Below, piece after piece: positions 5,232 to 30,025 of a stretch of 33,454 nucleotides of DNA; position 1 is the first letter of the stretch, and each line of letters starts with the position of its first letter. The stretch is from Bacteroidota bacterium (GTDB lineage Bacteria; Bacteroidota; Bacteroidia; Chitinophagales; UBA2359). Under the pieces are notes generated by a model. The model searched no databases. It had not been told where the DNA came from and saw nothing but the letters and a program-made list of their open reading frames with translations. Position numbers and translations under genes: made by a program. The DNA lies in NCBI GenBank assembly GCA_020631245.1, contig JAHDHP010000005.1:1-33454 (forward strand). Reading direction: 5' to 3'.

Positions 5232-5397
5232 TTAGAGGCTGTCTTGATTTTATAATCAGGCTTGCAAAAGCATCTTTTTTGCCCTAATTGTGTCTTTTTT
5301 TCGCCCCATAGCTCTGCTATGAACCTCAAAAAAGCCTTCATTAGGACTAATAATCTAGCTTTTTCAGCTCTAATCCTAAAATCAAGACAGCCTCTTA
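5232..5397. mobile_element. 160-bp foldback MITE with TTA target duplication
   Basis: Perfect 18-bp terminal inverted repeats (GAGGCTGTCTTGATTTTA at 5235-5252 and its complement at 5377-5394) are flanked by TTA on both sides (5232-5234 and 5395-5397). The arms stay partly complementary inward. The centre is a hairpin, CATAGC-TCT-GCTATG, with outer CTTTTTT/AAAAAAG pairing, so nearly the whole element could fold on itself. It encodes no transposase. The 3-bp TNA duplication and GAGGCTGT ends would fit mobilisation by an IS5-type (IS1031 group) transposase elsewhere in the genome, which is inference. Confidence 0.75.
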
Positions 5398-5460: not shown

Positions 5461-6012
5461 ATGTATGTATATCATCGTAAACCTCCTAATTTTCAAGGTA
5501 ATGTTCTTTATCCGTTGAATCAATTGAAGGATATATTTCCTGTTCTTTATGAAAAAGCGGCGAGTAAATACAAGGGACGAGAAATGATCATGCAACAGCA
5601 GATTCCTCGTTTGAACTGCTTGTGGAATGATGTGTTGCATTTTTCACCCGTTCATCCAGAAAAGGTTATGAACGCTTTATGGTCGCTTGGTTATCCGCCA
5701 CATAGCTCTACTTGGTGGAAAATAGATGTTGAAAAGGTAGGATTTAATGCTACGAATACCGTTGTTTATACAAATCACCGAAAACTTCCTTTTGGGGCAC
5801 CTTTTCCAATAGAAGATTTTATCCCTTTTGAAATAGCCCTAATTAACGAACATCAACAGCTTTCAGTTTCTACCCAAACTTATTATCAGGAATGCAAGGC
5901 ACAAAATCGGCGTCCTTTATTGTTTGTGAATGTTGCTCATGTGTTGCATTGGGGTGCGATTGATATAAGAGGAGTGGAGGAAGTAGTGGTGGTTGAAGGA
6001 AAAAAAGAGTGA
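5461..6012 (+). CDS. Hypothetical protein of a 'YVYH...GNVLYPLN...WNDV' family
   Basis: A 183-aa soluble protein without signal peptide. It begins MYVYHRKPPNFQGNVLYPLN and carries the sequences 'IPRLNCLWNDVLHFSPVHPE', 'LPFGAPFPIEDFIPFEI' and 'LLFVNVAHVLHWGAIDI'. From memory, similar proteins of about this length are annotated as group-specific or hypothetical in unrelated bacteria including bacilli, so this is probably a small widespread family of unknown function, perhaps horizontally spread. I see no proven active site, though the conserved-looking W, N, D and H residues are suggestive. Its TGA stop lies within the end of structured repeat copy A. The valine/glutamate tail (EEVVVVEGKKE) next to the repeat may be a recent addition. 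Confidence 0.7.
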   Translation: MYVYHRKPPNFQGNVLYPLNQLKDIFPVLYEKAASKYKGREMIMQQQIPRLNCLWNDVLHFSPVHPEKVMNALWSLGYPPHSSTWWKIDVEKVGFNATNTVVYTNHRKLPFGAPFPIEDFIPFEIALINEHQQLSVSTQTYYQECKAQNRRPLLFVNVAHVLHWGAIDIRGVEEVVVVEGKKE

Positions 6013-6230
6013 GGGATAGTAGTGGTAGCTTGGTGAAATAGGAGGCTAGTGATGCCTGTGCTGGCAGGGCTGACAACGGAAGACACTGCCAGCATATTGG
6101 CAGAACAGGCGGCTATGAAGCAACTACAAACGGATAGCCCGACCAAGCTGCAGTACTATCATTGCCTGCTCGTTTCATGCGAGGACGCATGAACGGGCGG
6201 CTGTGATAGTATTGCAGCTTAGGCACTCCC
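6007..6230 (-). repeat. Structured dispersed element, copy A
   Basis: Read on the minus strand, the copy begins GGGAGTGCC and ends ATCCCTCACTC. The ends can pair GAGT with ACTC. Inside is a long hairpin (GCTGCAATACTATCA with TGATAGTACTGCAGC) nesting TTCATGCG/CGCATGAA, then the shared core GGTCGGGCTATCCGTTTGTA. A second hairpin (GCTGGCAG/CTGCCAGC, 6060-6093) has the loop TGTCTTCC...GTCAGCC. Copies B and C in this window share this plan. The element overlaps the stop codon of the gene ending at 6012. The tail is followed by six T residues on the minus strand. Confidence 0.85.
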
Positions 6231-15521: not shown

Positions 15522-15533
15522 ATTCAACCATTT

Positions 15534-15610
15534 CGTACAGACAAGGCATGACTTGTCTCTACTCTACCACCAACTGCTCTCGTACAGACAAGGCATGACT
15601 TGTCTCTACT
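15534..15610. repeat. Two copies of a 30-bp palindromic (REP-like) repeat
   Basis: CGTACAGACAAGGCATGACT plus ten further bases occurs at 15534-15563 and again at 15581-15610, identical over 30 bp and 47 bp apart. Each copy contains the stem AGACAAG/CTTGTCT. The second copy lies inside the coding sequence of the BNR protein and encodes the residues ETSHALSVRE near its C-terminus. The first copy supplies its TAG stop codon. The wording resembles short 'GTAGAGAC...GTCTCTAC' intergenic repeats seen in other bacteria. Confidence 0.8.
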
Positions 15611-18247: not shown

Positions 18248-18482
18248 GGGCGTGCCCTTGCGCAGGGATTGGGATATTATGGGCTTGAAAAAAGTACAGC
18301 GTAACGCTAACACAATCCCTCAAGCCCACAATCCCTGCTTCAGGTCGGGCTTTCGGCTAATAGTTGGCTCGTATAAAAGGTGTTCGGCTATTTTTGCTGG
18401 CAGTGTCTTCCTTCGTCAGCCCTGCCAGCAAAAGCCTCACAACCTTTCTACTTCACCAATCTTCCGCCTCTATCCCTCACGC
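18248..18482 (+). repeat. Structured dispersed element, copy B
   Basis: It starts GGGCGTGCCC and ends ATCCCTCACGC, so GCGT can pair with ACGC. The first hairpin domain differs in sequence from copies A and C but has the same plan: GCAGGGATTG/CAATCCCTGC, GGGCTTGA/TCAAGCCC and AGCGT/ACGCT nested in order. The core reads GGTCGGGCTTTCGGCTAATA. The second hairpin is TTTTGCTGGCAG/CTGCCAGCAAAA (18392-18433) around the loop TGTCTTCC...GTCAGCC. It lies just upstream of the BNR protein gene. Confidence 0.85.
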
Positions 18483-18483
18483 A

Positions 18484-18653
18484 ATTCCCCTCCTCGGAGG
18501 GGCTAGGGGTGGGTTCATGACTGGGTGATTGGGTGGGCGTTACGCATTTATTTTAATAAGTGGGCTGTCTTAAAGTCTCCTTTTGGGAGGAGATTTAGAG
18601 GTGAGTTCATGATTAGATGACGGAATGACTGCATGATTGGATGGCGTTACGCG
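18484..18653 (+). repeat. Two diverged copies of a second intergenic repeat
   Basis: The pattern [A]A.TCCCCTCCT..GGAGGGG..TAGGGGTGGGTTCATGA, then 'gattgggtg' words, then GGCGTTACGC, occurs at 18484-18546 and in altered form at 18573-18653 (CTCCTTTTGGGAGGAG, then GAGTTCATGATTAGATGA, GATGGCGTTACGCG). Each starts with a short hairpin. Just after it, 18670-18690 holds a further hairpin (CCGCCAGT/ACTGGTGG) whose CAGTATCTTC loop recalls the loop of the structured element. There are no genes in 18160-18729. Confidence 0.65.
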
Positions 18654-29805: not shown

Positions 29806-30025
29806 GGGCGTATCCAAGCCGCAATATGCCTACCCACTTGTTCATGCGATAACGCATGAATCGGCAGACGCTTATACTGCGGCTTGGTCGGGCTATCCGT
29901 TTGTAGTTGGCTCATAGAAAACATATTCGGCTAGGTTGCCTAGCAGTGTCTTCCTCCGTCAGCCCTGCTAGGCAAAGCCTCATTATGTTTCTATTTCTCC
30001 AAGCTACCACTATTATCCCTTACGC
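29806..30025 (+). repeat. Structured dispersed element, copy C
   Basis: It starts GGGCGTATCC and ends ATCCCTTACGC, with GCGT/ACGC able to pair. Hairpin one is AAGCCGCAATAT with ATACTGCGGCTT, nesting TTCATGCG/CGCATGAA as in copy A. The core GGTCGGGCTATCCGTTTGTA is identical to copy A. Hairpin two is GCCTAGCAG/CTGCTAGGC (29938-29973) around the loop TGTCTTCC...GTCAGCC. It lies 34 bases past the PhoD gene's stop codon, on the opposite strand. Confidence 0.87.

Follow-up and report, generated by a model that had tools for sequence, protein, structure and literature searches.

The question raised by this locus is whether the head and the tail of a repeated element in the genome of a Bacteroidota bacterium (Chitinophagales; UBA2359) form one folded unit, although its ends lie about 200 bases apart, and what kind of element such a closed unit represents. 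The analysed window, i.e. the complete stretch of 33,454 nucleotides at the start of contig JAHDHP010000005.1, contains three copies, with copy A (6007..6230) folding on the forward strand and copies B (18248..18482) and C (29806..30025) on the reverse strand. In copy A the closing helix P1 is formed by GAGTG (6007..6011) and CACTC (6224..6228), with a conserved CC next to it (6229-6230), and the bounds 6007-6230 proposed by a sequence-only reading are thus exact. P1 consists of GCGTG (18478-18482) and CACGC (18250-18254) in copy B and of GCGTA (30021-30025) and TACGC (29808-29812) in copy C. The sequence-only reading had described a helix of four base pairs, GCGT with ACGC and GAGT with ACTC. 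The pairing holds, but the helix measures five base pairs, and the motifs given show this pairing in reverse complement, shortened by one base and with the reverse strand unstated. Copies B and C had furthermore been credited with identical ends, but they differ, and the fifth P1 pair of copy C is a second compensated version, a double change beyond the single one originally described.

The unit measures about 200-260 nt, with lengths of 195-306 nt recorded, and includes a conserved core of about 140 nt, and its 5'->3' order is P1 head, P2, the nested helices P3-P7, GACC, a 3' hairpin, GG, P1 tail, CC and an A-rich exit. Heads read GCGTGAGGGAT and relatives and are preceded by a short T/C-rich stretch. 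P2, which is represented by GGGATA (6013..6018) and TAGCCC (6135..6140) on the forward strand of copy A, varies among copies (AGG/CCT, GAG/CTC, GTG/CAC). It encloses the core (6019..6134, forward strand) with P3-P7 and the conserved loop GGCTGAC...GGAAGACA, in RNA notation GGCUGAC...GGAAGACA. The variable 3' hairpin of copy A (6145..6220, forward strand; AAGCTGCAGT...ATTGCAGCTT) harbors the nested palindrome TTCATGCGAGGACGCATGAA, and the hairpin sequence is freely swapped between copies, with a tiny CCCGCAGGG-type loop at one extreme and long arms harboring nested palindromes at the other. Folding of a single copy yields z=-9.3. In one subfamily the palindrome GTAGAGACGTTGC..GCAACGTCTGTAC always occupies the same position in the core, which thereby reaches about 163 nt (L074:15338, L092:3304, L055:1600 and others).

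The covariation of head and tail was investigated in 105 genomic copies, whose tails were placed without recourse to pairing, namely as the inverted repeat right after the conserved CCCGACC that is followed by the conserved CC. Five Watson-Crick P1 pairs are present in 93 of the 105 copies, and six of the 105, all rows with the consensus head, are one-base register errors. Seventeen heads depart from GCGTG and 13 of them are accompanied by a fully complementary tail (GCGCA/TGCGC five times, GCGTA/TACGC four times, GTGTG/CACAC three times and GAGTG/CACTC once), which corresponds to the head-to-tail comparison suggested in the sequence-only reading. Permutation of heads and tails resulted in a mean of 0.5 and a maximum of 5 matches, and none of 100,000 permutations reached 13. 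The four unmatched heads comprise ACGTG (twice) and TCGTG (once), each with a single mismatch of the outermost base, and GCATG, which reflects a one-base register error and after correction reads GCATG/CATGC, thus also pairing. Independently varying heads and tails, which we sought as a refutation, are accordingly confined to three single mismatches of the outermost base. At least five different P1 versions coexist within this one genome.

A second alignment of 56 rows, with ends defined by the hairpin and counts uncorrected for relatedness, showed that all seven helices tested, P1 and six more, covary. The proportion of paired cells is 96.8% compared with 87.9% in shuffled and 22-40% in slid alignments, and 187 vs. 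43 cells are changed on both sides. P1 alone has 98.9% paired cells with double changes at four of its five pairs, only the outermost pair ever breaks, and RNAalifold recovers the helix unprompted. Loci outside the genus were retrieved with a pattern in which both outer head positions of P1 are unconstrained, and their tails were found via CAC..CC. Among the matches listed, from a scan of named genomes that includes chance matches in other phyla, are GGGTG/CACCC in Chitinophagales and Cytophagales MAGs, CTGTG/CACAG in at least three MAGs, GTGTG/CACAC, and GAGTG with TCACTC; a Flavobacterium-like genome (L228) has GCGTT/AACGC. The matched end change between copy A and copies B and C is hence one instance of a covariation that lies far above chance and extends to distant Bacteroidota. 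The role of P1 as the boundary is documented by the syntenic flanks of the sister species, which become alignable again right past the tail CC, and by a shift of flank composition at both element ends. The covariation is therefore real, strong and broader than initially claimed, and the boundaries set by P1 are correct.

Pairing of head and tail alone does not prove that the element is an RNA. The strand that folds can nevertheless be read from the non-Watson-Crick pairs, since cruciform or other-strand folding should make A-C as common as G-U or commoner. The ratio of G-U to A-C is 41:4 in the core and 115:15 in the variable hairpin (p=3e-20; hairpins scored on Watson-Crick pairs only), and due to this excess of G-U it is one strand that folds and not a cruciform. 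The folded form is one defined strand, either as RNA or as single-stranded DNA, and the data fit both.

The distribution of the element is characterized by high and patchy copy numbers. A DNA search of this genome provided 644 first-look candidates, an exact pattern recovers 419 copies, and 144 profile matches in 1.03 Mb of contigs correspond to about 600 copies in the 4.44 Mb genome. The sister genome of the same genus has at least 217 exact-pattern copies, whereas other members of the family have 0-19. Of 198 genomes examined in the phylum, 15 contain the scaffold pattern, compared with one match in one genome for the reversed-pattern control. Several Bacteroidia families share the scaffold, each genome having its own copy number and inner sequences. 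The orientation relative to flanking genes is neutral (21 sense, 30 antisense, 20 convergent, 14 divergent). Copy A is inserted at the 3' end of the gene at 5461-6012, and the sister genome lacks it in the orthologous interval, where the gene end differs. Its head supplies the TGA stop codon (6010-6012) of this gene, and the sister-genome orthologue ends in its own sequence.

The neutral orientation, the patchy copy number, inner sequences that differ from genome to genome and the lack of copy A in the sister interval favor a mobile element over a cis-acting RNA. The reading that we favor, with a probability of roughly 0.6, is that of a non-autonomous mobile element, intergenic and high in copy number, which belongs to a Flavo-1-like superfamily and acts as a single-stranded nucleic acid. 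One strand, as ssDNA or RNA, would fold such that P1 encloses the P2-P7 core and the exchangeable 3' hairpin, and this strand may be recognized during spread by an enzyme supplied in trans. P1 could juxtapose both ends in a manner comparable to the subterminal hairpins of IS200/IS605 and REP elements, and the helices would stay paired under selection for being copied. We propose this mechanism of mobility with moderate confidence.

The persistence of sites provides a mixed picture. Among 49 orthologous intergenic intervals compared with the sister genome, the element is shared at five and unshared at three (Fisher p=6e-5 for co-occurrence, interval length uncontrolled), which is more persistence than a restless element suggests and was counted against mobility. 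Orientation is the same at four of the five shared sites, and in the clearest cases the downstream flank is kept up to the tail. However, in four of the five cases the similarity of the two copies does not exceed that of random pairs, and the 3' hairpins mostly differ; at one shared site the first species carries GCGTG/CACGC and the second GCATG/CATGC. Shared sites with dissimilar copies are explained by either re-use of the site or replacement of the resident copy. An empty site at base resolution was not found in comparison with the only same-genus genome, which is about 75% identical, and a search for joined flanks within the genome returned just two short matches, both in simple flank repeats.

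No excess of direct repeats indicative of target-site duplication is present at the ends of 107 copies (512 length/offset combinations), and the flanks lack inverted repeats. An IS608-like lagging-strand mechanism predicts a replichore bias, and the missing bias in five complete Flavobacterium-like genomes (Flavo-1 orientation vs. position, permutation p 0.45-0.99) counts against the mobile-element reading; in this genome a GC-skew proxy for the replication strand was marginal (p=0.05-0.06). RAYT genes of subclass 2.6 in Bacteroidetes are flanked by 'atypical secondary structures' (PMC6006769), a description that suggested the RAYT/Y1 transposases as candidate partners. A search of 22 genomes, in which 30 Y1 loci with 1.5 kb flanks were inspected, placed the element near only one (G106, L163), which is class 1.2-like and has palindromes of its own; apart from this case, Y1 transposase genes in 17 genomes had no element beside them. 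A RAYT link is thus not supported. The single Y1 gene of the genome under study has no element nearby. No autonomous, gene-bearing copy was seen in 1.02 Mb of this 78% complete genome, copies without a tail match being contig ends, minimal hairpins or one-base tail variants, and multi-copy protein families are lacking in the sampled contigs.

The element resembles REP/RAYT systems as a dispersed, intergenic and structured repeat of which one strand folds and for which a mobile origin in trans is plausible. It differs from REPs in the absence of a GT[AG]G foot (GTAG/GTGG) on a hairpin of 20-40 nt, in place of which it has a nested multi-helix unit of about 200 nt. With MITEs it shares the short, non-coding and high-copy character without genes of its own, but it lacks long terminal inverted repeats, P1 being 5 bp, and target-site duplications. 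A self-complementary repeat of about 165 nt at window positions 5234-5395, with 38-nt terminal inverted arms (AGAGGCTGTCTTGATTTT...AAAATCAAGACAGCCTCT), looks like a MITE; about 20 copies exist in the sister genome, and it is missing at the orthologous place there. Simple hairpin repeats directly adjoin the 5' side of most copies of the element (L034, L066, L078; window 18490-18560), among them TCATCCAATCATGCAG-type heptad arrays around GCGTAACGC, CGTCGGACGTTAATCG modules, CCCCTCCGAGGAGGGG and GCACTTCGCACATC. A related palindrome, TCGTACAGACAAGGCATGACTTGTCTCTACT, is located at 15533-15610 in two identical 31-nt copies that are 47 nt apart.

The alternating orientation of copies along the chromosome was likewise counted against mobility, which does not account for it. 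In the draft assemblies of this genome and its sister genome, 89 of 117 pairs of adjacent copies point in opposite directions (p=1.4e-8), and heads face each other in 19 of 22 gaps below 3 kb. The copies are spaced more evenly than under random placement within these contigs (CV 0.54 vs. 0.88, 95% range 0.76-1.02). The lack of neighbors with the same orientation could stem from recombinational loss of direct repeats, but this would not account for the preference of facing heads over facing tails. Most short gaps with inward heads contain codirectional genes, and the two species have a matching head-in pair around one operon (L085 15-,4862+; L242 267-,5020+). The alternating pattern is not significant in Flavobacterium-like genomes. 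The head-in gaps and the bracketed operon, together with the intergenic location and the co-occurrence at five sister-genome intervals, are compatible with a resident structural or regulatory element at the boundaries of transcription units, such as a terminator, a processing or stability element or an insulator, each copy being under selection. We regard this explanation as unlikely: the orientation is neutral to the flanking genes, a terminal U-run is missing, and copies at shared sites mostly resemble each other no better than random pairs do, with different 3' hairpins. Furthermore, Flavo-1 matches in F. psychrophilum are often untranscribed (PMC9723704).

High copy number, even spacing and opposite-facing neighbors would also suit a double-stranded DNA site, i.e. 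an extruded cruciform or a palindrome bound by a nucleoid protein. It is nonetheless improbable, because a cruciform folds both strands and no asymmetry is expected, in conflict with an excess of G-U over A-C of about 8 to 1, and because the multi-branch core is not palindromic.

Flavo-1 RNA (Rfam RF01705; Weinberg et al. 2010, PMC2864571) is among the known systems closest to the element. Searches of the window against tRNA, Rfam and microRNA models returned no real match, and literature searches by sequence string led only to 16S and primers. No match in the window reached the RF01705 cut-off of 42 bits, nor did copies A and C with permissive filters, and searches of the whole genome and the sister genome had zero matches. 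By contrast, several copies with the GTGAGGGAT...AGCCCGACC scaffold from other families of the class reach 53-65 bits against the same cut-off. We therefore describe the window element as a Flavo-1-like relative and not as a member of RF01705. Common to both are the P2/P3 scaffold GAUNG..AGNGG .. AGCGGA.AGC, its layout of 3 bp, a mismatch, 2 bp and then the AGNGG helix around a central domain with covarying helices 2 and 3, the central variable hairpin, the optional 3' hairpin and the CC plus A-rich exit. Both are also intergenic, high-copy and orientation-neutral, with a range in Bacteroidetes. The plan of canonical Flavo-1 matches, TTTTAGC-CCCGAT...AGC-GGG-A(variable)-GCT-CC-TAAAA, permits an AGC/GCT closing helix, which hardly varies and hence displays complementarity but not covariation. 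The Flavobacterium-like L228 copy, in which GCGTT/AACGC is combined with a 3' hairpin, is intermediate. P2 of the window copies reads GGG/CCC where Flavo-1 has CCC/GGG, their core is far larger and their 5-bp P1 is variable; in the Rfam structure the first and last eight positions are unpaired, leaving it without P1.

Rfam types RF01705 as an sRNA gene, and a conserved, covarying single-strand structure would be in agreement with an ordinary family of trans-acting small RNA genes. We consider this quite improbable for a sequence present in about 600 copies that follow no gene-orientation or promoter logic and have no conserved genomic neighbor. In line with the neutral orientation of the present element, the Flavo-1 matches of F. 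psychrophilum are indistinctly sense or antisense to transcribed regions, many lie outside them, and the transcriptome study that examined them assigned no function (PMC9723704). Least probable of all is a mutational artefact, in which template-switch repair of imperfect palindromes produces the matched changes without selection: it suits the long, perfect and exchangeable 3' hairpin and the nested palindromes, but the 5-bp P1 arms are separated by about 200 nt and two other structures, and covariation is just as strong in P2, P3 and the core helices despite their nested and interrupted layout.

Flavo-1 is an RNA family that has lacked an explanation since 2010. The closing helix provides exact ends, reveals that the database model is too short, and joins differently sized repeats of Bacteroidia as one superfamily. 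A tentative extension of the mobile-element reading, which we consider possible but doubtful, is that Flavo-1 and the element described here constitute a single Bacteroidia superfamily, namely mobile DNA that folds as a single strand but has been catalogued as a small RNA, truncated at both ends in the database, and whose roughly 600 copies in this genome form an alternating, even and head-inward array around transcription units that the genome may use as boundaries. The question thereby moves from the regulatory target of an RNA to what copies the element and why its copies alternate along the chromosome.
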